64,000 nucleotides of DNA from NCBI RefSeq assembly GCF_019704555.1, contig NZ_AP024745.1:7572501-7636500 (forward strand), in the 5' to 3' direction. The stretch is from Actinoplanes sp. L3-i22 (GTDB lineage Bacteria; Actinomycetota; Actinomycetes; Mycobacteriales; Micromonosporaceae). Below the pieces are notes generated by a model, which saw only the letters and a program-made list of their open reading frames with translations, was not told the DNA's origin and made no database searches. A program made the translations under genes and the position numbers. Each line of letters opens with the position of its first letter. Positions within the stretch are counted from its first letter, which is position 1. Positions 7,952 to 25,125 of this stretch are shown one piece after another.

Positions 7952-8249
7952 CCGCGTGCCCGGCAAACGATCAGGATCCGACCCAGATCCTATCGCCCGG
8001 ATACCTGACGAATTCGGACGGCCGCAGGTCATGTCCTTCGGCGGGCATCTCGTCGCTCGTTCCGGCCGCCGGCAATGGCGCCTCACCCCGCGCCGATCGC
8101 ACCGAGCGCGGGATGAGGACCTGTATGGGAGACGGGGCCGGGCGGGGCCGATAACCGAAACGGCGTGACAGAGATTCAAGAGCGACTCGACAGTGATGAT
8201 CGCTAATTTGCCGGCAGGGCTTCACCCAGCGATGAAGGAGCAACCGTTG

Positions 8250-8834
8250 ATGAGAAGACTGCTGGCACTGGCGGTCTCGCTGATCGTCCTGCCGACCGCC
8301 ACCGTCCTCACCCTGAGCAATCCGGCTCTCGCCTTCAACTACGGAGTTTGCAAGTTCGCCAGCGGCTCGATCAAGTGGAAGGACGCCACGAGGACGGCCG
8401 GCTACAGCACCGCCGCCCAGAACGCGATCAACGCCTGGGACAGCGCGGCGAACTCGCTGCTGACCTTCACCAAGGTGACCTCGGGCGCGGACCTCGTGGT
8501 CGCGGACGGCAACTTCGGCCGCGGCTTCGGCTACGAGAGCATCGCGCTGGGTCCCAACCAGACGAATCTCGTCAGCAACTGCGGTGTCGACGGCACTTGG
8601 ATCAACCCCATCTATGCCTGGGTGAACACCTATATGGCTGACGCCTACAGCGTGCCCAAGCGACAGAGCGCGTTCGCTCACGAGATCGGCCACGCGCTGG
8701 GTCTCGATGACTCCTCGGCGCAGAGCTGCCCCAACATTCCCATCATGCAGCCGTCGACATACCCGCGGTTCGACGTCTGTGGCTACACCGGGCCCCGCCC
8801 GGACGACATCGACGGCATCGAGGTCCTCTACTGA
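8250..8834 (+). CDS. Small secreted zinc metalloprotease (snapalysin/matrixin-like)
   Basis: The 194-residue protein has a signal peptide (MRRLLALAVSLIVLPTATVL..PALAF). The zinc site HEIGHALGLDD is at residues 144-154: His144, Glu145 and His148, with Asp154 where matrixins have a third His. Asp at that position is the mark of snapalysin (M7) of Streptomyces. PIMQPSTY supplies the Met-turn (Met166). Four cysteines (34, 111, 160, 176) could form two disulfides. I chose the ATG at 8250 because AAGGAG lies 9 nt upstream. It should be an extracellular endopeptidase. The gene faces the convergent hypothetical gene at 8847 with 12 bp between. Confidence 0.85.
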   Translation: MRRLLALAVSLIVLPTATVLTLSNPALAFNYGVCKFASGSIKWKDATRTAGYSTAAQNAINAWDSAANSLLTFTKVTSGADLVVADGNFGRGFGYESIALGPNQTNLVSNCGVDGTWINPIYAWVNTYMADAYSVPKRQSAFAHEIGHALGLDDSSAQSCPNIPIMQPSTYPRFDVCGYTGPRPDDIDGIEVLY

Positions 8835-9196: not shown

Positions 9197-10957
9197 TCAG
9201 CCCGGGTCGGCCCAGGCGGCGGCCAGGCCGGCGTACGGGCCGTCCTCGGTCACCAGCGTCCGGTGCGGGCCGGCCTGGACCAGGCGGCCGTCGGCGAAGA
9301 CCAGGACCCGGTCGGCGGCCTCGGCCATCGGCATCCGGTGCGCGATCGAGATCGTGGTCCGTCCCCGGGTCAGCGTGGTCAGGGCGCGCTGCACGGCCGC
9401 GTCGGTCGCCGGGTCGATGCCGGAGGTGGCCTCGTCGAAGATGACCAGGTCCGGGTCGGCCAGGGCGGTCCGGGCGAGGGCGACGAGCTGACGCTCGCCG
9501 ATGGAGAGGCGTTCCCCGCGTACGCCGACCCGCGTCGACAGTCCGTCCGGCAGGGTCGACAGCCAGTCGCGCAGCCCGAGTCGGGTGACGATCCGCAGCG
9601 CGTCCTCGTCGGTGGCCCGGTCCGCGCCGAGCCGGATGTTGTCCGCGATGCTCCCGTCGAACAGGAACGGGTCCTGCGGCACGATCACGACCCGGCCGGC
9701 CAGGTCACCGAGCCGCGCCAGGGGTGTCCCGGACAGCCGGATCCGCCCACCGGCCGGTTCCAGGCGCCGGGTGAGCAGCTTGGCGAAGGTCGACTTGCCG
9801 GACCCGGTCCGCCCGACGACGGCCACGTGCTCGCCCGGTTCGATCCGCACCGAGACGTCCCGCAGCACCAGCGGCCCGCCGGCGTAGCGGGCCGAGACGT
9901 CGTCGAGCCGCACCCCGACCGGCCCGGCCGGCAGCGGAACGCCGTCGTCGCCGAGGGCCGCCGGGGTGGTGACCAGCTCCAGGGCCCGGCGCCACCCGGT
10001 CAGCGCGTTCTGCGCCTCGCCCAGGCTCTGCACCACGAACTGCAGCGGCCGGACGAAGAACGTCACCAGGAACACCATCGCCACCACCTCGCCCGACGTC
10101 AGCCGCGGCGCCGCGGGATGCCCGGCCAGCGCGAACCACACCCCGCCGAGCAGCACGGTCACCGTCATCGTCGAGATCGCCAGCTCGCCGAGCGACGCGT
10201 TGGAGTGCAGCGGGATCTGCGTTCCGATCAGGCTGTCCCGGGAGCGATCCACGGCGGCGTCGAGCTTGGCGCGGGTGCGGTCCGCGGTCCCGGTCGACCG
10301 GATCAGCGGTCCGCCGAGGACCGACTCCGCGACCGCCCCCTGCAGCGCGGACAGGTCCCGGCGGGCCCGGTCGAAGCGCCGCGCGATGATCCGCTGGGTC
10401 CGGCTCATCGCCACCAGCAGCACCGCGGTGATCAGCAGCACCGGGATTGCGAGCTGCCATCCGTAGACGAGCAGGATCCCGGTGGCGATCAGCAGCTGCG
10501 CCGTGTTGGTCAGGAACTGGATCCCGCCGCCCTGCAGGAACGTGGTGACCTGGTCGAGATCGCTGGTCAGCCGGGTGACCAGGTCCGCGCTGGGCAGCCG
10601 GTCGGCGCCGGCCGCTGCCATGTCGTGCACCCGGCGCAGCCCGTCCCGGCGCAGCCCGGCGAGCGCCGCCTCCACCCGGCCCTGCAGCCGCCGGTTGAGC
10701 AGCAGCGACGACCCGCCGGCGAGCACCACCGCGCCGGCCCCGACCGCGATCGCCGGCCCGACCGTGTCCGGGTCAAGTCCAGAATCGATCACGTGCTGCA
10801 CGGTCAGCGGCGCGATGATCCGCCCAGCGCCGGCCAGCAGCGCGAGCAGGAACGTCACCGCCAGTCCCTGCCGCAGTTGCGGTGACACCCGGACCGCGGT
10901 GGCGACCAGCCGGCGCGGCCCGCTCCGGCTCAGGTCGGCGAGCAGCTCAGTGGACAC
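9197..10957 (-). CDS. ABC exporter half-transporter, subunit B (catalytic Walker B)
   Basis: The 586-residue protein has a six-helix transmembrane domain (about 1-320) and a C-terminal nucleotide-binding domain. Walker A is GRTGSGKST, Walker B is VIFDEATSG with the catalytic Glu intact, and the switch is IAHR. The signature is LSIGERQ, not LSGGQ. Paired with the upstream gene, whose signature is normal but whose Walker B Glu and switch His are lost, this forms an asymmetric heterodimer with one consensus and one degenerate ATP site. The start at GTG 10957 overlaps the previous stop by 11 nt. It is the last gene of the nine-gene unit. The exported substrate is unknown. Confidence 0.9.
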   Translation of the reverse strand: MSTELLADLSRSGPRRLVATAVRVSPQLRQGLAVTFLLALLAGAGRIIAPLTVQHVIDSGLDPDTVGPAIAVGAGAVVLAGGSSLLLNRRLQGRVEAALAGLRRDGLRRVHDMAAAGADRLPSADLVTRLTSDLDQVTTFLQGGGIQFLTNTAQLLIATGILLVYGWQLAIPVLLITAVLLVAMSRTQRIIARRFDRARRDLSALQGAVAESVLGGPLIRSTGTADRTRAKLDAAVDRSRDSLIGTQIPLHSNASLGELAISTMTVTVLLGGVWFALAGHPAAPRLTSGEVVAMVFLVTFFVRPLQFVVQSLGEAQNALTGWRRALELVTTPAALGDDGVPLPAGPVGVRLDDVSARYAGGPLVLRDVSVRIEPGEHVAVVGRTGSGKSTFAKLLTRRLEPAGGRIRLSGTPLARLGDLAGRVVIVPQDPFLFDGSIADNIRLGADRATDEDALRIVTRLGLRDWLSTLPDGLSTRVGVRGERLSIGERQLVALARTALADPDLVIFDEATSGIDPATDAAVQRALTTLTRGRTTISIAHRMPMAEAADRVLVFADGRLVQAGPHRTLVTEDGPYAGLAAAWADPG

Positions 10958-12725
10958 CGCTGGGTTCTCCCTCGGAATAGGCGTTCACGATCCGCCGGAA
11001 CTCCGGGCTGTCGCGCAGTTCGTCCGGGCTGCCGGCGGCCACGATCCGCCCGCCGGCCAGCACGATCACCCGGTCCGCGACCCGCACCGCGCCGGGCCGG
11101 TTGGTGCTGATCAGCACGGTCGGCCCGCCGCCGGCGACGAGCTCGGCCAGCGCCGAGAGCACCTGCCGCTCGACCCGGGAGTCCAGCGCCGACGTGGCGT
11201 CGTCGAGGATCAGCAGCCGTGGCTCCCGGAGCAGCGCCCGGGCCAGGCAGATCCGCTGCCGCTGCCCGCCGGAGAGCGTCGCGCCGCGCTCCCCCACCAC
11301 CGTCGCCAGGCCGTCCGGCAGCCCGCGCACGATCTCCTCGGCGGCCGCGCAGCGCAGCGCCCGCCACAGGTCGGCGTCCGCATATGATCCGCCGAGCACG
11401 AGGTTGTCCCGGATCGACTCGGCGAACAGGAACGGGCTCTGCGACACCGTCGCGACGTGCGCCGGCACCGCCGCCCGGGTCAGCGACCGCACGTCCACCC
11501 CGTCCAGCAGCACGATCCCGCGGTCCGCGTGCGCCTGCCCGCCGGCCAGGTCGAGCAGCGTGGTCTTGCCGGAGCCGACCGCGCCGACGACCACGGTGAT
11601 CGTGCCGGGCGCCAGCACCAGGTCGGCGTCCGCGACGATCCGCCGCCCCTGCCGGCTCACCCCCGCGCCGCGCAGTTCCACCCGCATCGGCCGGGCAGAC
11701 CCAGGATCAAAATCAAGATCCCCATGGGGTACGACGTGAGCACTGCCCAGCACCCCCTGGATCCGTTCCCGCCCCGCCGACGACATCGGCAGCATCGACA
11801 GGAACCGGCTGATCACGTTCAGCGGGATCGCGATGGTGATCAGCAGGTACACGACGCCGACCAGATCTCCCACGCTGAGCCGCCCGTCCTGCACGCGCGG
11901 CGCCCCGAACCCGAGCACGACCAGCACGGCCGCGGTCGGCAGCAGTTCCAGCAGCGGGTCGAAGACCGAGCTGACCGACGCCATCCGCAGGTCGGCGGTG
12001 CGCAGCCGCTCCACCCCGGGGGCGAACCGGGCGTCCTCCTTCTCGATCAGCCCCAGGCTGCGGACGACCGGTCCGCCCTCGATCGACTCGTGCGCGACCC
12101 CGCTGACCACGCCGCGGGCGGCCTGCGCGTCGCGGGCGCGCGGCGCGAGCAGCCGCTGGTAGGTCAGGTTGAGCCCGAGCACCGCCACCACCAGCGCCAG
12201 CCCGACCAGACCGAGCACGAGCGCCCGGCGGAACAGCTCGGTCAACGCCAGCAGCAGCATGAAGACCATGCCGACCGCGAAGTAGGCGAACTGCATCGGC
12301 GACCAGAGCGCGTCCACGTCCCCGCCGGCGTGCGCGAGCAGCTTGCCGGGTGGTCGCTCGCGGTGCCAGTCCGGGTGCAGGTCGAGGTAGCGGCGCACCA
12401 CCGCGCGCCGGGTCTCGGCCTGGGCCCGGTACTGCACCCGGCCGGTGCTGACCCCGCGGACCAGGATGGTGAGCCACCGGGTCGCCGAGACGCCGAGGAT
12501 GAACAGGGCGCTGAGCCACCAGGCGCGGGCCGGCACCGGCTCGCCGGCCAGCGCCGGGACGACCAGGTGGTCGGTGGCCCAGGCGATCGCGGACGCGCCG
12601 GCCACCATGGTGGAGCCGTTGACCAGGCCGGTGACCGTGGCGACCAGCGCGGTGCCGGGGTTGGCGCGGGCGCCGGCGAACTGGGCCGCGAGGGCGGAGT
12701 CGCGTCGCAGGTCAGGCGGCGACAC
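10947..12725 (-). CDS. ABC exporter half-transporter, subunit A (degenerate site)
   Basis: The 592-residue protein has an N-terminal six-helix membrane domain and an ATPase domain with Walker A GAVGSGKTT and a canonical LSGGQRQ signature. Walker B reads LILDDATSALD, with Asp for the catalytic Glu, and the switch reads ISTNRP with Asn for His. Both changes fall on the degenerate side of heterodimeric exporters of the TM287/288 and BmrCD type. The start at GTG 12725 overlaps the importer ATPase gene by 14 nt. A segment at 11700-11741 (residues HGDLDFDPG) resembles the dispersed repeat seen at 318 and may be an acquired loop. Confidence 0.9.
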   Translation of the reverse strand: MSPPDLRRDSALAAQFAGARANPGTALVATVTGLVNGSTMVAGASAIAWATDHLVVPALAGEPVPARAWWLSALFILGVSATRWLTILVRGVSTGRVQYRAQAETRRAVVRRYLDLHPDWHRERPPGKLLAHAGGDVDALWSPMQFAYFAVGMVFMLLLALTELFRRALVLGLVGLALVVAVLGLNLTYQRLLAPRARDAQAARGVVSGVAHESIEGGPVVRSLGLIEKEDARFAPGVERLRTADLRMASVSSVFDPLLELLPTAAVLVVLGFGAPRVQDGRLSVGDLVGVVYLLITIAIPLNVISRFLSMLPMSSAGRERIQGVLGSAHVVPHGDLDFDPGSARPMRVELRGAGVSRQGRRIVADADLVLAPGTITVVVGAVGSGKTTLLDLAGGQAHADRGIVLLDGVDVRSLTRAAVPAHVATVSQSPFLFAESIRDNLVLGGSYADADLWRALRCAAAEEIVRGLPDGLATVVGERGATLSGGQRQRICLARALLREPRLLILDDATSALDSRVERQVLSALAELVAGGGPTVLISTNRPGAVRVADRVIVLAGGRIVAAGSPDELRDSPEFRRIVNAYSEGEPSGVH

Positions 12726-14331
12726 GGCGGCCCGGGATGGCGTCGATCAGCTCGCGGGTGTACGAGCTCCGCGGGTCGCTGAACACCCGCGCGACCGGGC
12801 CCTCCTCGACCACTTTGCCGGCGTTCATCACCGAGACCGTGTGCGAGATCTGGGCGACCACGGCCAGGTCGTGCGAGACGAACAGGTAGGAGAGTCCGAG
12901 CCGGTCCTGCAGGTCGGCGAGCAGTCGCAGGATCTGCTCCTGGACCAGCACGTCGAGGGCGGAGACCGGCTCGTCGAGCATCAGCAGCTCGGGTTCGAGC
13001 GCGAGCGCCCGGGCGATCGCGACCCGCTGGCGCTGCCCGCCGGACAGCTCGGCGGGCAGCCGGTCCAGGTAGGCGGCCGGCAGCGCGACCTGGTCGAGCA
13101 GCTCGCGGGCGCGGGCCTCGCGGCTGCGCCGGTCGCCGATCCGGAACGAGACCAGCGGTTCAGTCACCGACTGGCGGACGGTGAACTTCGGGTCCAGGGT
13201 GGCGAACGGGTCCTGGTGCACGAGCTGGGCCTTGCGCCGCAGCGGCCGCATCCGGCTCCAGGACAGGCCGCTGATCTCGGTGCCGTCCAGCACGATCGAG
13301 CCGGTGGTCGCCGACTCCAGGCCGAGCGCGATCCGCAGCGTGGTGGTCTTGCCGCAGCCGGACTCGCCGACCAGGGCGTGGGTGCGGCCGCGCGGCACGG
13401 TCACCGTCACGTCCTCGAGGGCGTTGAAGCCGCGCCGGCCGCGCCGTGGATCGGTGACCGCGAACGTCTTGCCGACCCCGATCAGGGTCAGGATCGGGTC
13501 GGGCGCGGGCTCGTCCCGTACGTCGAAATGGGCTTGAAGTTGCCCGCCGTGCGCCAACCGGGGCGCGGCGGCGATCAGCTGACGGGTGTAGCCCTCCCGC
13601 GGCGCGGACAGGATGGTCGCCGGGTCGCCCTCGTCGACCTTGCGGCCGTGGCGCATCACCACCACGCGGTCGGCGCGGTCGGCGGCGACGGCCAGGTCGT
13701 GCGTGATGATCAACAGCGCGATGCCCTGCTCGCGGACCAGGCCGGTGAGGTGGTCCAGGATCCGCTTCTGGACGGTCACGTCGAGGGCGCTGGTGGGCTC
13801 GTCGGCGATGATCAGTTTCGGGCGGCCGGCGAGCGCGATGGCGATCAGCACGCGCTGCCGCAGGCCGCCGGAGAGCTCGTGCGGGTACTGCCGGGCGCGC
13901 AGCTCCGGCTCCGGCACGCCGGCCTGGGTCAGGTGCTCGATCACCTCGGCGGTCGCGGCCGGCCCGACGATGCCGCGCAGCCGGACGGCCTCGGCGATCT
14001 GGGCGCCGACCCGCTTGGTCGGGTTCAGGCCGACCATCGGGTCCTGCGGGATCAGGCCGACCGTGGAGCCGCGCAGCCGGCGCAGGGTGCGCTCGCGGGC
14101 GCCGGCGACCTGAACTCCGTCGACCAGGATCGAGCCGGCGGTGATCTTGCCGGCGGCCGGCAGCAGGCCGATCAGCGCGTTGCCGGTGGTGGTCTTGCCG
14201 GAGCCGGACTCGCCGACGATCGCGACCACCTCGCCCTGCCCTACGGTCAGATCCAATCCGGTCACGGCGGGCTGGATGGCGCGGTGCCGGACGTACCCGA
14301 CGTCCAACCCGGAAATCTCGACCAGACTCAT
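12712..14331 (-). CDS. Dipeptide/nickel-type importer, fused two-domain ATPase (DppD-DppF like)
   Basis: The 539-residue protein contains two complete ATPase domains. Domain 1 (about 1-250) has [23 protein letters not shown] and [12 protein letters not shown]; domain 2 (about 275-539) has [23 protein letters not shown] and [11 protein letters not shown]. This is the fused form of the two peptide-transporter ATPases that are separate in many bacteria. It should power import through the DppB/DppC-like permeases encoded just upstream. The ATG at 14331 overlaps the DppC stop (ATGA). Substrate class (peptide, nickel, opine or small organic solute) cannot be fixed by sequence. Confidence 0.92.
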
Positions 14332-15200
14332 CGGTTCAGCTCCTGGAACGTTTTGGCGATGTGGTTGAGGCTGAGCACCAGCAGGGCCACGAACAGGCCC
14401 GGCAGCAGGCTCAGCCACCAGGCGGTGACCAGGTAGTTGCGGCCGTCGGCGATCAGCGTGCCCCACTCGGCGGCCGGCGGCGCGGCGCCGAAACCGAGGA
14501 AGCTCAGCGACGCGATCGCGATGATCGCCACGCCCGCGTCGAGGACGGCGAGGGCCGCGACCGGGCCCCACGAGTTGGGCAGGATGTGCCGCAGCAGGAC
14601 CCGGCCCCAACTGGCTCCGCCGGCGCGGGCCGCTTCGACGTACGGCAAAGTCTTGACCCTGAGCACTTCGGCCCGGGTCGTCCGGGCGAAGCCCGGGACG
14701 ATGCCGACCCCGACCGCCACCGCGACCGGGATGGTGCCGTAACCGAGCGCGGTGACGATGCTCAGCGCGAGCAGCAGACCGGGGATGGCCAGCAGCACGT
14801 CGATGACCCGCATCAGGAACGAGTCGGTCAGGCCGCCGAAGAAGCCCGAGACGATGCCCAGCCCCAGCCCCGCGACCAGCGCGATGGCCAGGGCGATCAG
14901 GGTCGCCCGGATGGTCAGCGGCGACCCGTGCAGGACCCGGCTCCACAGGTCGCGCCCGTAGACGTCGGTGCCGAACAGGTGACTGCCGCTGGGCGCCTGC
15001 ATGGCGGTCGCTGGATTGGTCGCGTAGGGATCCTGCCCGGTGAACAGGCTCGGCCGGAAGGCGACCGCGACGACAAAAGCCACATAGATTGCTGCCAGCA
15101 GAAAGCCGGGATTGCGAATCAACGTCCAGATTTTTCCGACACGCCGGACAGTGCGCTCTTCGGTAGCGGTGACAACCGCCTCGGTGACCACGGCGGTCAT
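14328..15200 (-). CDS. ABC importer permease, DppC/OppC-like
   Basis: The 290-residue protein has about six membrane segments. GTDVYGRDLWSRVLHG near residue 80 is the DppC/NikC signature, and EAARAGGASWGRVLLRHILPNSWGP is the EAA loop that contacts the ATPase. The N-terminus includes an extra cytoplasmic stretch before the first helix (about residue 33). Its start and stop both overlap the neighbouring genes by four bases, implying translational coupling with DppB and the ATPase. Confidence 0.92.
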   Translation of the reverse strand: MTAVVTEAVVTATEERTVRRVGKIWTLIRNPGFLLAAIYVAFVVAVAFRPSLFTGQDPYATNPATAMQAPSGSHLFGTDVYGRDLWSRVLHGSPLTIRATLIALAIALVAGLGLGIVSGFFGGLTDSFLMRVIDVLLAIPGLLLALSIVTALGYGTIPVAVAVGVGIVPGFARTTRAEVLRVKTLPYVEAARAGGASWGRVLLRHILPNSWGPVAALAVLDAGVAIIAIASLSFLGFGAAPPAAEWGTLIADGRNYLVTAWWLSLLPGLFVALLVLSLNHIAKTFQELNR

Positions 15201-16153
15201 ACGGGAACCACCTCCGGGGTGTGCGAGATCCGTGGATCCAGCAGCGGATACAGCAGGTCGACGATCAGGTTCACCGTCACGAAGACGGTCGCCGCGAGGG
15301 TCACGACGGCCAGGACGACCGGGACGTCCTGGGCCAGCACCGCCTCCTGGGCGAGCTTGCCGACGCCCTCCCGGGTGAAGACCGTCTCGACGACGATCGA
15401 GCTGGTCACGGTGAGGCCGACGATCACGCCGAGGATCGTCATGGCGGGTAGCGCCGCGTTGCGGAAGGCGTGGCGCAGGTGCACCGCCGTACGGGAGAGG
15501 CCTTTTGCCCTTGCCGTGGTGATGTAGGCCTGGGTGAGCGTCTCGTCGAAGCTCTTGATCAGGACCTGGGCGAGCACCGAGGAGGTCACCACGGAGATGG
15601 TCAGGACCGGCATGATCAGCGACTGGGCGCCCTCGTTGCCGGTGGCCGGGAGCCAGCCGAGCTGGAACGACAGGAACTGGATCAGGAACAGCGCGATGAA
15701 GAACTGCGGGAACGACGCGCCGAGCGCCGGCAGCCGGGTGAGCACCACGCGCAGCGGGTTCCAGCGGACGAACGTGGCGAGGTAGGCGAGGGCCGACCCG
15801 GCTATCAGCGTCACCACCGCGGCGGTGACGCTGAGCAGCAGGGTCGGGCCGATCCGCTGGCCGATCAGGTCGGTGACCGGCACCTGCTGGGTCAGCGAGT
15901 CGCCGAAGTCGCCGTGCAGCACGCCCGCCAGGTGGTGCCGGTACTGCGCCCAGATCGACTCGTCGAGACCGAACCGGTGCTGCATCGCGGCGAACTGGTC
16001 CGGGGTGAGGCTGTCCTCCTGGATGCCGGCGGCGGCCAGCTGCAGCTGCATCGGGTTGCTCGGCAGCAGGTACAGGATCGCGAAGGTCAGGGTGAACGCC
16101 GCCCAGAGGACGGCGCCCGCCTGCACGACGCGACCCACGACGTAGCGGATCAT
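15197..16153 (-). CDS. ABC importer permease, DppB/OppB-like
   Basis: The 318-residue protein begins MIRYVVGRVVQAGAVLWAAFTLTFAILYLLP, the typical first helix of DppB permeases. It then has the periplasmic loop (ALLPSN..QLAAAGIQED to FGDSLTQQVPV) and an EAA loop TARAKGLSRTAVHLRHAFRNAALP. It forms the transmembrane channel with the DppC partner. The ATG at 16153 lies 13 nt after the binding-protein stop; the in-frame extension upstream is only the shadow of that gene. Confidence 0.92.
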   Translation of the reverse strand: MIRYVVGRVVQAGAVLWAAFTLTFAILYLLPSNPMQLQLAAAGIQEDSLTPDQFAAMQHRFGLDESIWAQYRHHLAGVLHGDFGDSLTQQVPVTDLIGQRIGPTLLLSVTAAVVTLIAGSALAYLATFVRWNPLRVVLTRLPALGASFPQFFIALFLIQFLSFQLGWLPATGNEGAQSLIMPVLTISVVTSSVLAQVLIKSFDETLTQAYITTARAKGLSRTAVHLRHAFRNAALPAMTILGVIVGLTVTSSIVVETVFTREGVGKLAQEAVLAQDVPVVLAVVTLAATVFVTVNLIVDLLYPLLDPRISHTPEVVPV

Positions 16154-16166
16154 GGGTCGCGTCCTC

Positions 16167-17780
16167 TCAGTCCTTCGTGACGTCGTTGAGCTTGAGGAAG
16201 CTCTCCGAGGTGAACGCGAAGCCGTGCACCTTGCTGCTGACACCGGCCTTCTGCAGCCGTTCGAACAGCGGGATGGTGACGCCCTGGTCGACCAGGTAGT
16301 CCTGCAGCTCGGCGTACGTCTGCTCGGTCTGCTTCTCGTCGGTGGTCTGCAGCGCCTTGGCGAACAGGTCCTGGATCTTCTTGGTGACGTCCGGGGTGGT
16401 CGCGTTGGTGGCGAGCGCCTTGGAGTTGGCCACCTCGGGGTTCAGGATGAACTGCAGGGCGCCCGGGTCGGCGCGGGTGAAGTAGGTGCTCGTCAGGTCG
16501 TACGAGCCCTCCTTCAGGTAGGTCGCCTGCTGGGCGGTGGTCAGCGTGCGCAGCGCCAGGTCGATGCCGGCCAGCTTGAGCTGGGCCTGCAGCAGCTCCG
16601 GCCCGGCCGAGCCGGCCGTGATCGGGAAGTCGATGGTCAGCTTCTTGCCGTCCTTGGCCCGGATGCCGTCCGCGCCCGGGACCCAGCCGGCCCCGTCCAG
16701 CAGCTTCTTCGCGCCGTCCACGTCGTAGGCCAGCTTGTCCGCGAGGGACTTGAAGTACGGCGTGGTGGTCTCGAACGGCCCCTCGACGGTCGGGTAGTCC
16801 GCGCCGTAGATCGTGGTCGCGTACGTCTTGCGGTCGATCGCCTTGCTCAGCGCCTGCCGGACCGCCGGGTCGGCCAGCACGTGCCCGGCCGACGTGTTCG
16901 CGTACAGGTTGTAGGCGACGCCGGGCAGCGAGCGGCTCTCCACCGTGTCACCGGACTTCTTGATCAGCTGCTCGTCCTGCGGCGAGAACGGGTTGCGCGG
17001 CCAGGCGATGTCGGTCGCGCCGCTGACCAGGTTGCCGGTGCGGACGCTGTCCTCGGCGACGTAGTTGAAGACCGCCTTGTCGATCTGCGCCTCGCCGCGG
17101 TTGGCCGACGTCCCCGAGCCCCAGGTGTAGCCGGCCCGCTTGGTCAGCACCGTCTCGACCTTGGCGGTGTAGTGGTCCAGCGCGAACAGGCCGGAGCCGA
17201 CGACGCCCTTGCCGGTGCACCGGTCGGCCGGGCTGAGCGCGAACTCCGCCGGGTCGGTGATGGCCAGGTTCGTCGTGGACGTGGCCTGCAGGAACGACGA
17301 GTTCGGCCGGCTCAGGTCGAACTCGACGGTCAGCGGGTCGACGACCTTGGCGCCGGTCAGGCCCTGGATGTACGAGGCGCCGTAGGCCGCGCCGTTGGTC
17401 GCCTTGACCGTCGCGATCCACCCGGCCGCGTCATCGGCGACCGCCTGCGCGTCCAGCTTCTTGCCGTTGGCGAACGTCACGCCGTCCTTGAGGTGGAATG
17501 TATACGTCTTGCCGTCCGGGCTGATCTCCCACTTCTCGGCGAGCCAGGGGACGATCTCGCCGGTCTTCGGGTCCTGATCGGTCAGCGAGTCGGCGAAGTT
17601 GCGGATGATCGTGCGGCTCTCGATCCAGTAGACCTGGAACGGATCGATGCAGGAGAACGTCGGGTTGTCCGGCCAGAACGAGACCTTGAGGGTCTTCCCC
17701 TCGGCCGAGGTCGCGGAGTTCCCGCCGCACCCACTCAGGGCCAGCAGTCCGGCCGCCATCACTACTGCAAATTTTCTCAC
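16167..17780 (-). CDS. Family 5 extracellular solute-binding lipoprotein
   Basis: The 537-residue lipoprotein has an N-terminal lipobox (LALSGC, Cys18) and all the landmarks of the SBP_bac_5 family: LTDQDPKTGEIVPWLAEKWEISPDGKTYTFHLKDGVTFANG near residues 70-115, and DPAVRQALSKAIDR in the middle. It would capture the substrate outside the membrane and hand it to the DppBC channel. It starts with GTG at 17780, overlapping the acyl-CoA dehydrogenase TAG by one base. Being inserted between oxidative enzymes and permease genes, it suggests that the imported molecule is the substrate of those enzymes. Confidence 0.92.
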   Translation of the reverse strand: MRKFAVVMAAGLLALSGCGGNSATSAEGKTLKVSFWPDNPTFSCIDPFQVYWIESRTIIRNFADSLTDQDPKTGEIVPWLAEKWEISPDGKTYTFHLKDGVTFANGKKLDAQAVADDAAGWIATVKATNGAAYGASYIQGLTGAKVVDPLTVEFDLSRPNSSFLQATSTTNLAITDPAEFALSPADRCTGKGVVGSGLFALDHYTAKVETVLTKRAGYTWGSGTSANRGEAQIDKAVFNYVAEDSVRTGNLVSGATDIAWPRNPFSPQDEQLIKKSGDTVESRSLPGVAYNLYANTSAGHVLADPAVRQALSKAIDRKTYATTIYGADYPTVEGPFETTTPYFKSLADKLAYDVDGAKKLLDGAGWVPGADGIRAKDGKKLTIDFPITAGSAGPELLQAQLKLAGIDLALRTLTTAQQATYLKEGSYDLTSTYFTRADPGALQFILNPEVANSKALATNATTPDVTKKIQDLFAKALQTTDEKQTEQTYAELQDYLVDQGVTIPLFERLQKAGVSSKVHGFAFTSESFLKLNDVTKD

Positions 17781-18922
17781 TATTTATCCTTTTTGAGTAC
17801 GCGGCGTCCGCTGGCCAGGAGCACGGCGTCCTCCTGGGGTGGGTGGACCCGGATGCAGAGCGCGTCGCGCAGGTGGCGTTCCAGGGGGTGGTGACGGGAG
17901 AGGCCGGGGTTGCCGAGGGCGGCGACCGCGGTCTGGGTCGCGGCGATCACCGAGCGGGCGATCGCGACCTTGATCGCGGACAGGTCCGGCTGGTCGCCGG
18001 CGGCCAGGCGCAGCAGCGCGCCGTGCAGCAGCGTCTCGGCCTGGGTGATCTGCAGCTCGATCTCGCCGGCGACCGACTGGATGCGCTCGGTCTCGGCGAT
18101 CGGGCGGCCCAGGGCGGTGGGCACCCGGCTGCGGGCGTAGTCGGCGAACGCGCCGCGGGCCGCCCGGGCCACCCCGAGGTAGAGCGCCGGGTGACCGAAG
18201 CTGCCCGGCCCGGTGGCGGCGGCCGGATCCCGGTAGACGCCGTCGGCGCCGCGCGGGATCTCGACGAACGCGTCGGCCGGCACGCGGACGTCCGCGTAGA
18301 CGACGTCGTGGGTGTTGGAGGCGCGCAGCCCGATGTGGTCCCAGGTGTCCACCCAGGTGATCCCGGCGCTCTCCCCCGGGACGATCACGTGCCCGACCCG
18401 GCCGTCGTCGGCGGTCGCCCACACCACGTGGTAGGCCAGGGCCGCGCCGCCGGTGGCGTAGGCCTTGTGGCCGTTGAGCAGCCAGCCGTCCCCGACCCGG
18501 GTGATCGTGGTTTTGGGCAGCCCGCCGCGGGCCGGGGCGCCGAGCTCGGGCTCGGCGCGGATCGCGTTGGCCAGCGCCGGGCCCTCCGCCGAGCGGCGCA
18601 GCAGGTCGTCGTAGTACCCGGCCGGCCAGGTGGGGTGGGTGGCCTGGGCGGTGTGGGTGTTGAGCAGGTTCGCGGCGAGCAGCCCGACCGAGGCGTCACC
18701 CTCGCCGATCGCGGTCAGGATCCGGGCCGTGTCCCTCGGGCCGAGCCCCGGGCCGCCGAACTGCGTGCCGACGGTCGCGGTGAGCAGGCCGGCCCGGTGC
18801 GCGGCCTCGAGCCCGGGCCACGGGATGTCGCCGGTGCGGTCGAACTCGGCGGCGTGCGCGGCGATCTCATCGGTGACCTTGGCCAGCGCGTCACGGGAGA
18901 GATCGGGGGCGGCGAACCTCAC
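17780..18922 (-). CDS. Acyl-CoA dehydrogenase-fold monooxygenase (SfnB/DszC-like)
   Basis: The 380-residue flavoprotein has the acyl-CoA dehydrogenase layout: an N-terminal helical domain (AAEFDRTGDIPWPGLEAAHRAGLL), a middle beta domain (GGLPKTTITRVGDGWLLNGHKAYATGG) and C-terminal helices. The conserved stretch HIGLRASNTHDVVYADVRVP resembles the SfnB/DszC branch, whose members oxidise organosulfur compounds rather than acyl-CoAs. The gene starts at GTG 18922, overlapping the LLM stop (GTGA). Neighbours (LLM monooxygenase, importer) favour a sulfur-scavenging or related oxidative role; this is inferred. Confidence 0.85.
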   Translation of the reverse strand: MRFAAPDLSRDALAKVTDEIAAHAAEFDRTGDIPWPGLEAAHRAGLLTATVGTQFGGPGLGPRDTARILTAIGEGDASVGLLAANLLNTHTAQATHPTWPAGYYDDLLRRSAEGPALANAIRAEPELGAPARGGLPKTTITRVGDGWLLNGHKAYATGGAALAYHVVWATADDGRVGHVIVPGESAGITWVDTWDHIGLRASNTHDVVYADVRVPADAFVEIPRGADGVYRDPAAATGPGSFGHPALYLGVARAARGAFADYARSRVPTALGRPIAETERIQSVAGEIELQITQAETLLHGALLRLAAGDQPDLSAIKVAIARSVIAATQTAVAALGNPGLSRHHPLERHLRDALCIRVHPPQEDAVLLASGRRVLKKDK

Positions 18923-20124
18923 GGCTGGCCGGCCGTGGCGAACTCGCGGTACTCGGCGCCGTAGTTGCCCAGGTGCTCGGCCTGCAGGCGGCCGCGCTGA
19001 CCGGTCGACTTGCGGTGCGCGAGCTCCTGGCGGACCAGCGGCAGGACCTGCTTGCCGTAGTCGGCGGCGTCGGCGAGCGTGTCGTAGCCGCGGATCGAGA
19101 CCAGCGACGCGCCCCGGTCGATGTAGTCCAGGATCGCGGCGGCGACCGTCTCCGGGGAGCCGACCAGCGCGGTGGAGGCGCCGGCCGCGTTGGTCACGGC
19201 CGCGGTCCGGGTCCACAACGCGCGGTCGTAGAGCTCCTTCTCGTTCGCGAAGGCCAGGGCCCGCTGGGAGCCGACGTTCTGCGGGTTGGTGCCGGCCAGC
19301 AATGGCCGTACCCTCGCGAAGTTTTTCTCGATCTTGGTGACGTAGTCGTGGGCCTTGGCCCAGGCGAGCTCGTCGGTGGCCGCGGTGATCGGGCGGAACG
19401 TGACCCAGATCCGGGGCAGCGTGGTCCGGCCGGCGTCCCGGGCGATGCCGTGCACCCGCTCGATCTCGCTACGCAGGTCGTCGAGCGGCTCGCCCCAGAA
19501 GCTGAAGATGTCGGCCTTCGCGCCGCCGACCGCGAACGCCTCGTCGGACTGCCCGCCGATGCTGATCGGAATCGGACCCGCGTACGGCGCGAAGCCCGGC
19601 CCGAACTCGTCGAACTTGTAGAACTCGCCCGCGTGGCTGAACGGCGCCGGCTCGGTCCACGAGCGGCGCAGCACGTCGATGTACTCCGAGGTGCGCGCGT
19701 ACCGCTGGTGCTTGGGCAGGTAGTCGCCCTGCCGGGCCTGCTCGGCGTCGCTGCCGCCGGAGATCAGGTGGACCACCGCGCGGCCCTGGGTGAGCTGGTC
19801 CAGGGTGGCCAGCTTCTGCGCGCCGACGGTCGGCGGCGTGGTGTTCGGGCGCAGCGCGACGATCGGCCGGATCCGCTCGGTGAGCTGGCCGACCGCGGCC
19901 GCGGTGACGAACGAGTCGGCGCTGTTCGAGCCGTAGGGCAGCAGCGTGTAGTCGTAGCCGGACTCCTCCAGCGTGGCCACGTACCGCTTGAAGAAGTCGA
20001 AGTCGATGCCGCGCGACGGGAGCGGGTTCAGCTCGGTCGACGGGTTCAGGTGGGTCAGGCTGATGAACTCGGCCTCGGGCGACGCGGTGGCGGGCAGGTC
20101 CGTACCGAAATCGGGGGTGCTCAT
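18919..20124 (-). CDS. LLM-class flavin-dependent monooxygenase (SsuD-like)
   Basis: The 401-residue protein is a full-length alkanesulfonate-monooxygenase-type LLM enzyme. Landmarks are GIDFDFFKRYVATLEESGYDYTLLPYGSNSADSF, IVALRPNTTPPTVGAQKLATLDQLTQGRAVVHLISGG (the RP..P.T..A and LD..S.GR motifs of SsuD) and HAGEFYKFDEFGPGF. It would use reduced FMN supplied by a separate reductase; none is encoded adjacent. The start at ATG 20124 overlaps the hydrolase stop (ATGA). Likely reaction is oxygenolytic C-S or C-N bond cleavage; exact substrate unknown. Confidence 0.88.
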   Translation of the reverse strand: MSTPDFGTDLPATASPEAEFISLTHLNPSTELNPLPSRGIDFDFFKRYVATLEESGYDYTLLPYGSNSADSFVTAAAVGQLTERIRPIVALRPNTTPPTVGAQKLATLDQLTQGRAVVHLISGGSDAEQARQGDYLPKHQRYARTSEYIDVLRRSWTEPAPFSHAGEFYKFDEFGPGFAPYAGPIPISIGGQSDEAFAVGGAKADIFSFWGEPLDDLRSEIERVHGIARDAGRTTLPRIWVTFRPITAATDELAWAKAHDYVTKIEKNFARVRPLLAGTNPQNVGSQRALAFANEKELYDRALWTRTAAVTNAAGASTALVGSPETVAAAILDYIDRGASLVSIRGYDTLADAADYGKQVLPLVRQELAHRKSTGQRGRLQAEHLGNYGAEYREFATAGQP

Positions 20125-20858
20125 GAGAAGGTCCTCTCCTTGGTCGCCAGGTCGTTGCCGGCCCGCAGCCGCTCCAGGAAGAGCACGACGGTGGCGGCAA
20201 CAGTGCGGTGGGTCTGGTCGTTGAGCACGTCGTGCGGTGCGCCGGCGATGCTGACGAGCTCGGCGCGGGGCACGGCGGCGTACCACCCGCGGATGCTGTC
20301 GAGAGGGCTGATCGGGTCGAGCCGGCCGTGCAGGCCCAGGACCGGGACGGTGATCTCGCCGGGGACGTCCGGGTCGAACCACCCGGCCGGCAGGTCGGTG
20401 AAGAGCTCACCGGGGCGGACCCCGGCGTCGCTGATCCGGCCGCGGTGGGTCGGACAGAGGCTGCGGGCGTCCAGCTCGCCCGCCCAGTCGAGGGTCACCG
20501 CGGCCGTCGGCGCGGCCGGCAGACCGGCCAGGATCAGCGCGGAGGCGCGGGGCAGGCGGTGGGTCGCGGCCAGGTGGGCGGCGTACGCGGCGCCGGCGTC
20601 CGAGCCCACCACGATCCGCGGCTTCTCCGGGTCGGCGGTCTTGAAGATGTCGGTGATCTGCTCGGCGGCCAGGTCCGGGTCGTCGCTGGGCGCCGTGATC
20701 GCGTGCACCCGGTACGCGTCGGCGGCCAGCCGCCGCCCGAAGCGCTCGTAGACCTGGGCGGACTCGCCGCGCCCGGGAAGCAGGACCAGCGTCCCGCGCA
20801 GCGGGATCGGGGTGGGTTCGGTCCAGGTGAGGACGGTGTCCTCGGAGGCGAGAGTCAT
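20121..20858 (-). CDS. Alpha/beta hydrolase with Asp in the nucleophile position
   Basis: The 245-residue protein has the alpha/beta hydrolase core. The nucleophile elbow reads V-G-S-D-A-G-A: Asp87 occupies the G-x-Nu-x-G position where esterases have Ser. The likely acid is Asp181 (LHGRLDPISP) and the base is His209 (GAPHDV). An Asp nucleophile is the mark of epoxide hydrolases and haloalkane dehalogenases. It is the first gene of the unit and the ATG at 20858 follows GGAAGG by about 10 nt. It may hydrolyse a product or substrate of the two flavin enzymes. The residue reading is direct; the function is inferred. Confidence 0.82.
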   Translation of the reverse strand: MTLASEDTVLTWTEPTPIPLRGTLVLLPGRGESAQVYERFGRRLAADAYRVHAITAPSDDPDLAAEQITDIFKTADPEKPRIVVGSDAGAAYAAHLAATHRLPRASALILAGLPAAPTAAVTLDWAGELDARSLCPTHRGRISDAGVRPGELFTDLPAGWFDPDVPGEITVPVLGLHGRLDPISPLDSIRGWYAAVPRAELVSIAGAPHDVLNDQTHRTVAATVVLFLERLRAGNDLATKERTFS

Positions 20859-20983: not shown

Positions 20984-21823
20984 CTACGCCGCCGGGGCGA
21001 GGACTGCCTGCAGGCCTTCGCGGACGGCTTCGGCCAGGTGCGGGTCAGCGCCCGCGCGCACACGCAGGCTGACCGGGGCGGGGGTGACGGTGGGCAGGTC
21101 GGCGCGTTCGGTCAGGCCCTCCGGAGTGGAGGCCGCCGTGGCCATCAGGGCGACGCCGAGGCCGGCGCGGACCGCGTCGAAGACGCCGGCGACGTAGCCG
21201 CTGTCGCAGACGACGTAGGGGTCGCGGCCGTTTGCGGACAGCGCCGCGACCGCCCGCCGGCGCAGCACGCACGGCTCCTCGATCGCGACCAGCGGGACCG
21301 CCGGGCCGGCCGGGGCCTGCCAGGTCGACGCCGCGTACCAGGTGAGCGGCAGGGCGCCGATCGGCACGCCGTCCACCGACGACGCCTCGGCCAGGTGCAC
21401 GGCCAGGTCGAGCACGCCCCGGTCGACGGCCGCGTCCAGCCGGCGGGTCCGGTCGATCCGGAAGCGCACCTGGTGATCGGGGAGCGCCGCGGTGACCGCG
21501 GACAGGATCAGGTCGGCGGCGTGCTCGGTGGCGCCGACCGTGATCGTCGGGCGACCGGGACCGATCAGCCGGCGCAGCGCCTCGTCGTGCGCGGTCAGGA
21601 TCCGCCGGGCCTCGCCGAGCAGCGCCTGCCCCTCCGGCGTGAACACGGCCGCCCGGCCCTGGCGTTCGACGGCGGGCCGGCCGAGCACCTTCTCCAGCCG
21701 CCGCACGTGCTGGCTGACCGCGGACTGGCTGATCCGCAGGGTGGCCGCGGCCCGGTGGAAGCCGCCGCAGTCGGCCACCGCGACCAGGCTGCGCAGCGCG
21801 ACGATGTCCAGGATCTGCCCCAT
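20984..21823 (-). CDS. LysR-family transcriptional regulator
   Basis: The 279-residue protein starts LDIVALRSLVAVADCGGFHRAAATLRISQSAVSQHVRRLEKVLG, a standard LysR winged helix. The effector domain follows (ITVGATEHAADLILSAV ... VPIGALPLTWYA ... GYVAGVFDAVRAGLGVALM). LysR proteins usually act on the divergent promoter and on their own gene; here the divergent gene is the reductase-rhodanese fusion and a 14-bp palindrome lies between. The nine-gene unit begins 125 bp downstream of its stop on the same strand, so it is a second likely target. The effector is unknown; a sulfur-status metabolite is plausible. Confidence 0.9.
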   Translation of the reverse strand: MGQILDIVALRSLVAVADCGGFHRAAATLRISQSAVSQHVRRLEKVLGRPAVERQGRAAVFTPEGQALLGEARRILTAHDEALRRLIGPGRPTITVGATEHAADLILSAVTAALPDHQVRFRIDRTRRLDAAVDRGVLDLAVHLAEASSVDGVPIGALPLTWYAASTWQAPAGPAVPLVAIEEPCVLRRRAVAALSANGRDPYVVCDSGYVAGVFDAVRAGLGVALMATAASTPEGLTERADLPTVTPAPVSLRVRAGADPHLAEAVREGLQAVLAPAA

Positions 21824-21864: not shown

Positions 21865-21878
21865 ATTCCGATCGGAAT
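21865..21878. promoter_or_regulatory. 14-bp perfect palindrome between divergent genes
   Basis: ATTCCGATCGGAAT is a perfect palindrome lying 41 bp upstream of the LysR start and 44 bp upstream of the fusion gene start. Its central position in a divergent LysR promoter region makes it the best candidate for the LysR binding site. Confidence 0.5.
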
Positions 21879-21922
21879 TCAGTGTTGGACAGAGGCGTCG
21901 GGCGGCATCCATGCTGACCTGC

Positions 21923-23806
21923 ATGACTTCGGCTTCAATTCCTACTGAAACTATCGGTGATATCGGCCACTCTTCTCGGTATGTGGTCATCGGCGCGGGC
22001 GCGGTCGGCGCCTCGATCGCCGCCGAGCTGCACCGGGCCGGAGTCGAGACGCTGCTGGTCGCCCGAGGCGCCCAACTCACCGCCCTGCGGACCGAAGGGC
22101 TTTCCTACGTACGGCCGGACGGCACGCACCAGCTGCGGATCCCGGTCGCGGCCGGCCCGGACGAGGTCGAGCTGACCGGGAACGACATCCTGCTGCTGGC
22201 CACCAAGAGCCAGGACACCGAGGCCGCGGTCCGCGCCTGGGCGTGGCGCCCGGTGAAGCGGGCCGACGGCGGCACCGGGGTGGCGGCCACCGATCTGCCG
22301 CTGGTCACCCTGCAGAACGGCCTGGCCAGCGAGCGGATCGCGCTGCGCTCGTTCGCGCAGGTGATCGGCGGGGTGGTCTGGATCCCGGCGACCTACGTGG
22401 TGCCGGGCGAGGTGGTCAACCACGCCGACCCGGTCCCGGCCGTGCTGTTCCTCGGCCGCTACCCGGACGCCGCCTCACCCGCAGCCTCACCCGTGGCCGA
22501 GCGGGTCGCCGGCGGGCTGCGACAGGGCGGCTTCGTCGTGCACGTGGTTCCGGACATCACCGCGCACAAGGCCGCCAAGCTGCTCGGGAACCTGGTCAAC
22601 ACGCTCGACGCGCTCTACCTGCCGAGCCCGCTGCGGGACCGCGCCGTCGAGGTGCTGCGCGCCGAGGCCCGGGCCGTCTACGCCGCCGCCGGGATCGTGC
22701 CGGCCACCCCGGACCAGCGGGGCTTCGGCGTCGCCGAGATCCCCACCCACCCGCGGGCCGGCAACTCGACCCGGCAGAGCCTGACCCGCGCGGCCGTGCC
22801 CGAGACCGACTACCTGGACGGGGAGATCGTGCTGCTCGGGCGCCTGCACGGGGTGCCGGCCCCGGCCGCCGCGGCGATCCAGGCCCGCGTCCACCGCGCG
22901 ATCGCCGAGGGCACGCCGGCCGGGTCGCTCGACGACACCGACCTGGCCGTCATTTTCGGACAGCCCGCCGAGCGGCCCGCCGTGCTGATCTCCGCCGAGG
23001 ACGTCTACCGGCAGGCCGCCGAGCCGAACCCGCCGGTACTGCTCGACGTGCGGTGGGCACTCGGCGACCCGGACGGCGAGCAGCACTACCACGACGGGCA
23101 CCTGCCCGGCGCCGTCTACGTGGACCTGGACACCGAGCTGGCCGGGCCGCACGAGCCGCTCGCCGGGCGGCACCCGCTGCCGTCGCCGCGGCAGCTGCAG
23201 GCGGCCGCGCGGCGGTGGGGCATCAACGCGGGGACCACGGTCGTGGTCTACGACAACAGCGGTGGACTCGCCGCGGCCCGGGCCTGGTGGCTGTTGCGCT
23301 GGGGCGGGGTCGCCGACGTACGCCTGCTCGACGGCGGCCTGGCCGCGTGGCGTGCCGCCGGTTACGCCGAAGCCTCGGGATCGGCGCGGCCGCGGGCGGC
23401 CGGCGACGTCGTGCTCGACGGCGGCCACCTGCCGGTGCTGACCGCCGACGAGGCGGCCGCCCTGCCCCGGACCGGGACGCTGCTGGACGCGCGGGCCGGC
23501 GAACGCTACCGCGGCGAGGTCGAGCCGATCGACCCACGGGCCGGGCACATTCCCGGGGCGGTCAGCAGGCCGACCGGGGAGAACCTGCAATCCGGGATCC
23601 CTTACTTCAAGACCGCCGACGAGCTGCGGGAACGGTTCGCGGACGTGCGCGGGACGGTCGGCGTCTACTGCGGATCCGGGGTGACCGCGGCGCATCAGAT
23701 CGCGGCGCTGGCCGTCGCGGGGATCGACGCGGCGCTCTACCCGGGGTCGTGGTCGGCCTGGTCGGCGGACCCGGCGCGGCCGGTGGCGACCGGGGACCGG
23801 CCGTGA
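21923..23806 (+). CDS. Ketopantoate reductase-like / double-rhodanese fusion protein
   Basis: The 627-residue protein joins two enzymes in one frame with no stop. Residues about 18-345 form an ApbA/PanE-like reductase: YVVIGAGAVGASIAAEL is the dinucleotide fold (GAGAVG at 24-29), with LLLATKSQDTE, TLQNGLASE and KLLGNLVNT following. Residues about 354-627 form a tandem rhodanese: the first module (LLDVRW..GHLPGAVYVDLD) lacks a Cys, the second (LLDARAGERYRG..GHIPGAV) carries Cys583 in YCGSGVTAAH, the SseA/TST-type loop. The start at 21923 is a guess among 21911, 21923 and a GTG further in. A GTG at 22982 could also start free rhodanese. It is coupled by GTGA to the next gene. Confidence 0.85.
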   Translation: MTSASIPTETIGDIGHSSRYVVIGAGAVGASIAAELHRAGVETLLVARGAQLTALRTEGLSYVRPDGTHQLRIPVAAGPDEVELTGNDILLLATKSQDTEAAVRAWAWRPVKRADGGTGVAATDLPLVTLQNGLASERIALRSFAQVIGGVVWIPATYVVPGEVVNHADPVPAVLFLGRYPDAASPAASPVAERVAGGLRQGGFVVHVVPDITAHKAAKLLGNLVNTLDALYLPSPLRDRAVEVLRAEARAVYAAAGIVPATPDQRGFGVAEIPTHPRAGNSTRQSLTRAAVPETDYLDGEIVLLGRLHGVPAPAAAAIQARVHRAIAEGTPAGSLDDTDLAVIFGQPAERPAVLISAEDVYRQAAEPNPPVLLDVRWALGDPDGEQHYHDGHLPGAVYVDLDTELAGPHEPLAGRHPLPSPRQLQAAARRWGINAGTTVVVYDNSGGLAAARAWWLLRWGGVADVRLLDGGLAAWRAAGYAEASGSARPRAAGDVVLDGGHLPVLTADEAAALPRTGTLLDARAGERYRGEVEPIDPRAGHIPGAVSRPTGENLQSGIPYFKTADELRERFADVRGTVGVYCGSGVTAAHQIAALAVAGIDAALYPGSWSAWSADPARPVATGDRP

Positions 23807-25125
23807 GCCTGGAGTGGCTGGCCCGGACCGGGGTGCCGTGGAGCGCCGCGCCCGACGTGGTCGCGGCACGGCGGCTGGACCGGTCCGGGTGGGAGCCGGA
23901 CGGGGCTCCGGCGGCGGTGGTCTTCCCGCGAGACGTGGAGGACGTGCAAGCCGTGTTGACGGGCGCGTTCCTCACCCGTACCCCGATAGTCCCGCGCGGA
24001 GCCGGAACCGCGCTGACCGGCGCAACCACCGCAGGGGCCGGCGAGGTCGTTCTCGACCTCGCCGGAATGAACCGGATCCTGGACATCCGCCCGGCTGACG
24101 GCGTCGCCGTCGTCGAACCCGGGGTGATCACCGCGGACCTGGACCGGGCCGCCGCCGAGCACGGGCTGCGCTACGCGCCGGACCCGGCCAGTCTGGAGAT
24201 CTCCACGATCGGCGGGAACATCGCGACCAACGCCGGCGGGTTGCGCTGCGCGAAGTACGGCGTGACCCGGGACGCGGTCCTCGGCCTGGACGTCGTGCTG
24301 GCCGGCGGCGAGCGGCTCTCGACCGGGCGCGCGACCCTCAAGGGCGTCGCCGGCTACGACCTGACCGGGCTCTTCGTCGGCTCGGAGGGCACGCTCGGGG
24401 TCATCGTCTCCGCGACGCTGCGGTTGCGGCCGCTGCCCGCCGCGACCTCGACGATCGCCGCCTACTACCCGGACATCGAGGCCGCCGCGGAGGCGTCGGT
24501 GGCGCTCGCGGAGGCCCGGATCCAGCCGGTCCTCGCGGAACTTCTCGATCAGGCGACGCTGGACGCGATCGATCCCGCGCTGCGGTCCTCCGGGTCGGCG
24601 CTGCTGATCGTGCAGCTCGACGGCGGTCCGGCGGAGGCGGCTGACGCCGCCTCGGTGCTGGGCAAGGGGGCGGTCTCGGTCCAGGTCTCTCAAGATCCAG
24701 AGCATTTGCTGTACGCCCGCAGGCAGGCCCTGCCGTCGATCGAGCGCCTCGGGCGGCCGTTGATCGAGGACATCGCCGTACCCCGGTCCAAGCTCGCCCT
24801 CGCCGTGCGCGAGATCGGCGCGATCGCGGCCCGGCACGACGTCCCGATCTGCACCCTGGCGCACGCCGGCGACGGCAACCTGCACCCGATCATCGTGGCC
24901 GGCTCCTACGGCTCCCCGATCCCGGAGGCGGCGTCGCGGGCGGCCGACGAGATCTTCGAACTGGCCCTCACCCTGGGCGGGACGGTGACCGGCGAACACG
25001 GCGTCGGCGTGCTCAAGCGGCAATGGCTGGCACGCGAGGCCGGGCCGTTCTCGCTCGGCCTGCAGCAGCAGATCAAGGCCGTCTTCGACCCGCACGGCAT
25101 CCTCAACCCGGGAAAGGCCCTGTAG
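23803..25125 (+). CDS. GlcD-type FAD-binding oxidase
   Basis: The 440-residue protein has a PCMH-type FAD domain (VVFPRDVEDVQAVL, VPRGAGTALTGATT, SLEISTIGGNIATNAGGLRCAKYG) and a C-terminal FAD-oxidase domain (HAGDGNLHPII, GGTVTGEHGVGVLKRQWL, FDPHGILNPGKAL). It matches glycolate oxidase GlcD and D-lactate dehydrogenase in length and motifs, so oxidation of a 2-hydroxy acid with electrons passed to the respiratory chain is likely. It starts at GTG 23803, overlapping the fusion gene stop, and may oxidise a hydroxy acid produced by the reductase domain or by the operon opposite. Confidence 0.88.
   Translation: MSLEWLARTGVPWSAAPDVVAARRLDRSGWEPDGAPAAVVFPRDVEDVQAVLTGAFLTRTPIVPRGAGTALTGATTAGAGEVVLDLAGMNRILDIRPADGVAVVEPGVITADLDRAAAEHGLRYAPDPASLEISTIGGNIATNAGGLRCAKYGVTRDAVLGLDVVLAGGERLSTGRATLKGVAGYDLTGLFVGSEGTLGVIVSATLRLRPLPAATSTIAAYYPDIEAAAEASVALAEARIQPVLAELLDQATLDAIDPALRSSGSALLIVQLDGGPAEAADAASVLGKGAVSVQVSQDPEHLLYARRQALPSIERLGRPLIEDIAVPRSKLALAVREIGAIAARHDVPICTLAHAGDGNLHPIIVAGSYGSPIPEAASRAADEIFELALTLGGTVTGEHGVGVLKRQWLAREAGPFSLGLQQQIKAVFDPHGILNPGKAL

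Follow-up and report, generated by a model that had tools for sequence, protein, structure and literature searches.

A ketopantoate reductase-like domain fused to a tandem rhodanese in Actinoplanes and other actinobacteria, usually within a putative sulfur-scavenging gene cluster

Introduction

Does one polypeptide of Actinoplanes sp. L3-i22 join a relative of ketopantoate reductase to a sulfurtransferase, and what would such a protein do? The question arises from a gene in a stretch of 64,000 nucleotides (assembly GCF_019704555.1, contig NZ_AP024745.1, positions 7,572,501 to 7,636,500 of the forward strand), here called the window. The initial annotation read this gene as an in-frame fusion of an ApbA/PanE-like dehydrogenase with a tandem rhodanese, placed it beside an organosulfur-type operon in close coupling with a GlcD-type oxidase, and named two findings that would speak against a fusion: orthologues always encoded as two genes, and a rhodanese translated solely from an internal start. 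Loci and genomes are cited below by L and G numbers, and family groups by f numbers.

Results and Discussion

The fusion protein and its occurrence

Both sets of domains are called within one frame of 627 residues, as first proposed. The N-terminal, ketopantoate-reductase-like (KPR) part is recognized by Pfam ApbA (77 bits, curated cut-off 22.2) and ApbA_C (27.5 bits, cut-off 22.7), and the C-terminal part is matched by Pfam rhodanese in two stretches. The KPR half has the fold and catalytic residues of the ketopantoate reductase superfamily; the solved structures closest to it are named ketopantoate reductases, and the ST-x-Q and E-x-D motifs are present in alignments of its solved relatives. 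The other half shows the tandem rhodanese and CG[S/T]GVTA active loop of the 3-mercaptopyruvate sulfurtransferase (MST) family, the loop reading CGSGVTA at the predicted active residue, Cys583. We take this loop to be a mark of MST, of the mercaptopyruvate rather than the thiosulfate type.

The same two-domain protein was sought in genome samples from relatives (100), the family (300), the order (397), the class (394) and the phylum (396); these samples overlap, and the frames of long matches were checked afterwards. At least 46 distinct loci in 45 genomes (G004 has two) carry both domains in one open frame, a lower bound taken among the matches listed, and the orthologues are therefore not always two genes. 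Before counting, 12 repeat-contig or fragment loci were removed (L057, L086–L093, L095, L096 and L153), and Actinoplanes liguriensis (G031) was excluded, its copy being split over two contigs and frames. Actinoplanes sensu lato accounts for 26 fused loci, the window included, and Prauserella cavernicola for one outside that genus. The order search gave nine (eight in group f15, one in f2), while the class search gave 19 long rows, all of group f32, four of which match the query over part of its length only; ten were fetched and all ten are single frames. In the phylum sample the window's own was the sole full-length match among the matches listed (E up to 1e-88). Within the genus, 21 of 60 genomes have the fusion as one frame, that of L3-i22 included, and 39 lack it. 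Because the 46 loci were selected for a shared frame, their in-frame state is not independent evidence; the number of independent genomes is. With 46 fused loci across 45 genomes, a missed stop or assembly error was rejected as the source of the fusion, as was its confinement to the one strain, given the fused loci in relatives and in the order and class searches.

Both halves are well conserved. Lys219, Ser282, Gln285 and Glu294 of the KPR domain occur in all 46 fused loci, and Cys583 in 45, with a gap in the shortened L041; the loop residues Cys, Gly, Ser, Gly and Val are likewise found in 45. Lys, Ser and Glu are presumably catalytic in PanE, and the matching residues are kept here. Ratios of nonsynonymous to synonymous substitution rates are 0.12–0.31 for KPR and 0.09–0.25 for MST (ten closely related pairs, some with a common member), and purifying selection acts on both domains. 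Both are probably catalytically active.

The protein is a real and widespread new domain architecture, a new combination of known enzymes. None of the 41 Protein Data Bank (PDB) sequences compared is named as a KPR-rhodanese fusion, no description of the architecture or of its pathway was found in the open-licence literature searched, and none was found in the available part of PMC8557817. It differs from members of the ketopantoate reductase family (PanE/ApbA, whose fold is shared by D-mandelate dehydrogenase) in carrying a sulfurtransferase and scoring below the PanE cut-off, and from SseA-type MST in the reductase in front, a score below the SseA cut-off and the usual proximity of organosulfur-type genes. 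The multi-domain rhodaneses YnjE and EanB also hold a tandem rhodanese within a longer chain, but in KPR-MST the partner is a dehydrogenase. Two common enzyme families are here united in one chain, a union that several actinobacterial families have preserved, making a link between 2-oxo-acid redox chemistry and sulfur transfer testable. The domain name alone would misassign such genes to pantothenate biosynthesis.

The junction and a possible internal start

The stretch between the domains as defined by BLAST ranges from 2 to 90 residues across the fused loci, with short repeats in some, and varies widely in length and sequence. Such a junction could conceal a start codon, in which case the rhodanese would be translated separately from the GTG at 22982 (Val354) and the fused protein would be absent or not the sole product. 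Against a purely fused product, this first conserved Val of MST (22982-22984) is encoded by GTG in 30 of the 46 loci. The share of GTG there, 0.67 of 45 Val codons, is the highest of 18 well-conserved Val columns (the others have 0.02–0.63, the next highest being Val376, deep within MST) and exceeds the 0.40 of all Val codons in the fused genes; in the window the GTG also follows a 3-base Shine-Dalgarno match. On the other hand, GTG is missing from this position in 16 loci, and in seven the junction stretch scanned lacks any ATG, GTG or TTG. A Shine-Dalgarno score of at least 5 was found at 2 of 46 junctions compared with 226 of 1422 called genes in these loci, and of at least 4 at 10 of 46 compared with 581 of 1422, a weak test, as 429 of the 1422 genes score zero. 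The excess of GTG could be what is left of a start codon from a time when MST was a separate gene, and it would also fit minor use of an internal start by certain species. It led us to raise the standing of an internal start slightly, from very improbable to improbable, and to lower that of the fused protein a little, from virtually certain to almost certainly real. Translation of the rhodanese solely from within, named in the initial annotation as speaking against a fusion, is unlikely; 30 loci have the GTG and 16 lack it.

The surrounding gene cluster

Seven gene families characterize the surroundings: LysR, an alpha/beta hydrolase, an SsuD-like monooxygenase, an acyl-CoA-dehydrogenase-like flavoprotein, an Opp importer, GlcD and an exporter pair. 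At least three of these lie within 9 kb of 32 of the 46 fused loci, compared with 9 of 75 MST-only loci, which were collected by similarity and are not a random sample. All nine MST-only positives are themselves cluster loci, and one (L034) adjoins a fused gene. Within the same distance of the fused loci the hydrolase is found in 30, GlcD in 28, the flavoprotein in 26, LysR in 25, the monooxygenase in 23 and the Opp importer in 22. Judged from this gene content, KPR-MST usually sits in what appears to be an uncharacterised cluster of the sulfur-scavenging type.

The organosulfur-type operon of the initial annotation was recovered in the window, with its SsuD-related monooxygenase, SfnB/DszC-related flavoprotein, importer and LysR regulator, and so was the close coupling to GlcD, the gene of which probably overlaps the fusion gene by four bases. 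Known ssu, sfn and dsz clusters share with it an SsuD/SfnG-related monooxygenase, an SfnB/DszC-related flavoprotein, an ABC (ATP-binding cassette) importer and a LysR regulator, but the present cluster adds GlcD, an alpha/beta hydrolase, MST and KPR. Its monooxygenase and flavoprotein also fall below the equivalog cut-offs; the former, at 172.8 bits for SsuD (cut-off 518.2) and 119.8 for SfnG (382.95), is a relative and not a member.

KPR and MST also occur on separate chains in the same kind of cluster, in L083, L084, L163 (Nocardioides), L241, L081 and L080, with the order KPR-GlcD-MST in L083 and L084; this supports a functional link independently of the fusion. In L083 (9555-10739) and L084 (10713-11879) the MST has a third rhodanese stretch, which in L083 matches the rhodanese part of MoeB.

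In the available parts of two studies of Gordonia, sulfurtransferases were raised on organosulfur sources, in one of them alongside SfnB and luciferase-like oxidoreductases (PMC7661421, PMC11852219). These data, as far as those parts go, fit a role under sulfur limitation, though other genes are concerned. The genomic context makes it probable that KPR-MST acts in organosulfur scavenging. It points to an uncharacterised organosulfur pathway comprising LysR, hydrolase, monooxygenases, GlcD, MST and KPR, and offers a starting point for understanding how actinobacteria of the soil may obtain sulfur from organic sources.

Evolution of the fusion

In an unrooted KPR tree the KPR-alone Actinoplanes rows (L047–L049 and L056) are nested within fused rows, which is read as loss of MST; in the MST tree, L054 and L055 are nested likewise, read as loss of KPR. 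The KPR tree further groups L080, L083, L084 and L163 together, joins L060–L062 to the fused f15 and Prauserella rows, and places L081 and L241 among fused rows with weak support. With the paralogues of the L3-i22 genome left out and the nested KPR-alone rows scored as fused, the KPR tree requires 4 changes of label, of which the starred branches force at least 2; in the MST tree 7 changes of the fused label are required, 4 of them forced by starred branches. On these trees, one fusion origin followed by losses and a few separate fusions are both possible.

Proposed function and alternatives

The best overall explanation, held with a little less than even confidence, is one bifunctional polypeptide for sulfur salvage. 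We infer its substrate, reaction direction, cofactor and channelling as follows. An imported compound would be oxidised by the SsuD-like and acyl-CoA-dehydrogenase-like enzymes, giving a sulfur-bearing 2-hydroxy or 2-oxo acid; GlcD (with flavin) and the KPR domain (with NADP(H)) would interconvert the two forms; and MST would draw sulfur from the 2-oxo acid (3-mercaptopyruvate or an analogue), holding it as a persulfide on Cys583 before handing it on, the flexible linker holding the redox step and sulfur transfer together. That both domains act on one intermediate, such as mercaptopyruvate, is conceivable but somewhat doubtful. More speculative still, and rather unlikely, is a redox gating of the sulfane-sulfur supply, in which KPR would set the ratio of mercapto-2-oxo to 2-hydroxy acid and pass the oxo form to MST on the same chain; were this true, imported organosulfur would reach a protein persulfide directly, bypassing free sulfite or sulfide.

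Several observations weigh against a bifunctional sulfur-salvage protein. Neither half reaches the specific models (KPR 101.1 bits, against 141.35 for NCBIfam PanE model TIGR00745; MST 131.4 bits, against 250 for SseA equivalog NF008557), and KPR and GlcD would oppose each other if both freely used the same acid. Fourteen of the 46 fused loci show at most two of the cluster families within 9 kb. Two of the fourteen, L052 and L229, are short stretches, and two families are retained in L039 and L041; in L225 the neighbours are HSP70-like, LuxR-type, YkuD and molybdopterin genes, and the neighbours of L223, L226, L227, L228 and L230 are similar to these in size, the sole basis of comparison. In L041 (Actinoplanes regularis) the protein ends early, the C-terminal half of its MST being missing together with the active Cys. 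KPR is absent from the clusters L054 and L055 (genomes G042 and G040), with a KPR-like match of 48% elsewhere in G042, on a different contig, and from L242 on Pseudonocardia plasmid pBCI1-2, where LysR, hydrolase, MST, GlcD, monooxygenase, flavoprotein and importer are all present; KPR is thus not needed there. Conversely, no MST lies beside KPR in L047, L048 and L049, and in G051, G010 and G022 KPR occurs without MST, accompanied by no more of the cluster than hydrolase and exporter pair. MST is also fused to other partners: to a hydrolase in L080 (9505-11100, minus strand, 531 residues), from a genome of the same family and a cluster of the same kind, and to an aldose 1-epimerase in L079 (9595-11391, minus strand), followed by a D-isomer 2-hydroxyacid dehydrogenase. 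The fusion may therefore merely follow gene order. The L079 form may be a deletion product that lost KPR, given the order epimerase, KPR-MST, 2-hydroxyacid dehydrogenase in L045.

The chief competing explanation, which we consider less probable but serious, is one pathway with two unlinked jobs on different substrates. KPR would oxidise or reduce the carbon remainder after C-S cleavage, a 2-oxo acid or similar, and MST would deal with the sulfur set free, for instance by transferring it as sulfane sulfur to sulfite, which would yield thiosulfate. This agrees with the cluster monooxygenase being nearest to SsuD and MsuD, which release sulfite, and with a Tau-like importer in L038, homologues of which occur in other clusters; monooxygenase and importer together suggest sulfonates. 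The single losses of MST and of KPR point the same way, but the MST loop is of what we assume to be the mercaptopyruvate and not the thiosulfate type. An unlikely explanation is a by-product of gene order, a C-terminal MST module having been joined repeatedly to the gene upstream with equal expression as the only gain. Its three partners (KPR in 46 loci, hydrolase in L080, epimerase in L079), the highly variable linker, and KPR and MST adjacent yet unfused and without the cluster in L060 and L061 would all fit; against it, KPR-MST persists in at least four family groups and both its domains are under purifying selection, which suggests something beyond the accident of being neighbours. That KPR is the pantothenate enzyme of the organism, as the names of its closest solved structures might imply, is highly improbable. 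The fusion is one of eight ApbA-family matches in the genome, and two of the other proteins exceed the TIGR00745 cut-off (221 and 215 bits, against 141), which the fusion does not (101), so that a pantothenate role was rejected; the 39 same-genus genomes without a one-frame fusion also argue against it.

Genes and sites near the fusion gene

Features of the window are listed in Table 1; genes were called with a simple custom gene caller.

Table 1. Coordinates of the fusion gene, its parts and neighbouring features in the window
Feature	Position	Strand	Remarks
KPR-MST fusion gene, 627 residues	21923..23806	+	single open frame
KPR domain, residues 18-333	21974..22921	+	ApbA/ApbA_C; Lys219, Ser282, Gln285, Glu294 invariant
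Interdomain linker, about residues 334-352	22922..22978	+	predicted-structure confidence (pLDDT) <50 at 347-350
Tandem rhodanese (MST) domain, residues 353-627	22979..23803	+	
Cys583 codon, in loop CGSGVTA	23669..23671	+	Cys in 45/46 fused loci
GlcD-type FAD (flavin adenine dinucleotide) oxidase of 2-hydroxy acids	23803..25125	+	Pfam, NCBIfam; start inferred
14-base palindrome ATTCCGATCGGAAT, divergent promoter region	21865..21878	.	then TTGGACA at 21885-21891
Divergent LysR-type regulator	20984..21823	-	nearest NCBIfam model LrhA, below its cut-off
Alpha/beta hydrolase, elbow G-S-D-x-G	20121..20858	-	
Luciferase-like monooxygenase	18919..20124	-	related to SsuD, MsuD, SfnG
Acyl-CoA-dehydrogenase-like flavoprotein	17780..18922	-	related to SfnB, DszC among others
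SBP5-OppB-OppC-OppDF type importer, four genes	12712..17759	-	Pfam, NCBIfam
Pair of ABC exporter-type half transporters	9197..12725	-	end of same strand run

The GlcD gene probably begins with the GTGA at 23803, which gives the overlap with the fusion gene; the closest PDB neighbours of its product are glycolate oxidase and D-lactate dehydrogenases. The elbow of the cluster hydrolase is G-x-D-x-G in all 36 rows (seven of them second copies), with Asp, not Ser, at the nucleophile position, presumably as in dehalogenases and epoxide hydrolases. Exporter pairs homologous to that of the window were found in L041, L047, L048, L051 and L163.

Among 20 aligned rows, window included, the palindrome ATTCCGATCGGAAT is perfect in the window and L075 and partly conserved in others. 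The ATG stands about 30 bases beyond TTGGACA, and the succession of palindrome, TTGGACA and ATG is partly kept across these rows. This layout (21865-21925) may indicate a leaderless start at 21923.

The plasmid pBCI1-2, which bears L242, is 850 kb in size and typed as mobilizable. The KPR-free cluster of L054 is flanked by genes for an M20 peptidase (7468-8544) and a GNAT acetyltransferase (13581-14471), a pair that we take to be reminiscent of N-acetyl cysteine-conjugate salvage. In the window, a second GlcD-type protein is encoded near the cluster (28901-31693), an FAD oxidase of 930 residues with Fe-S and cysteine-rich domains.
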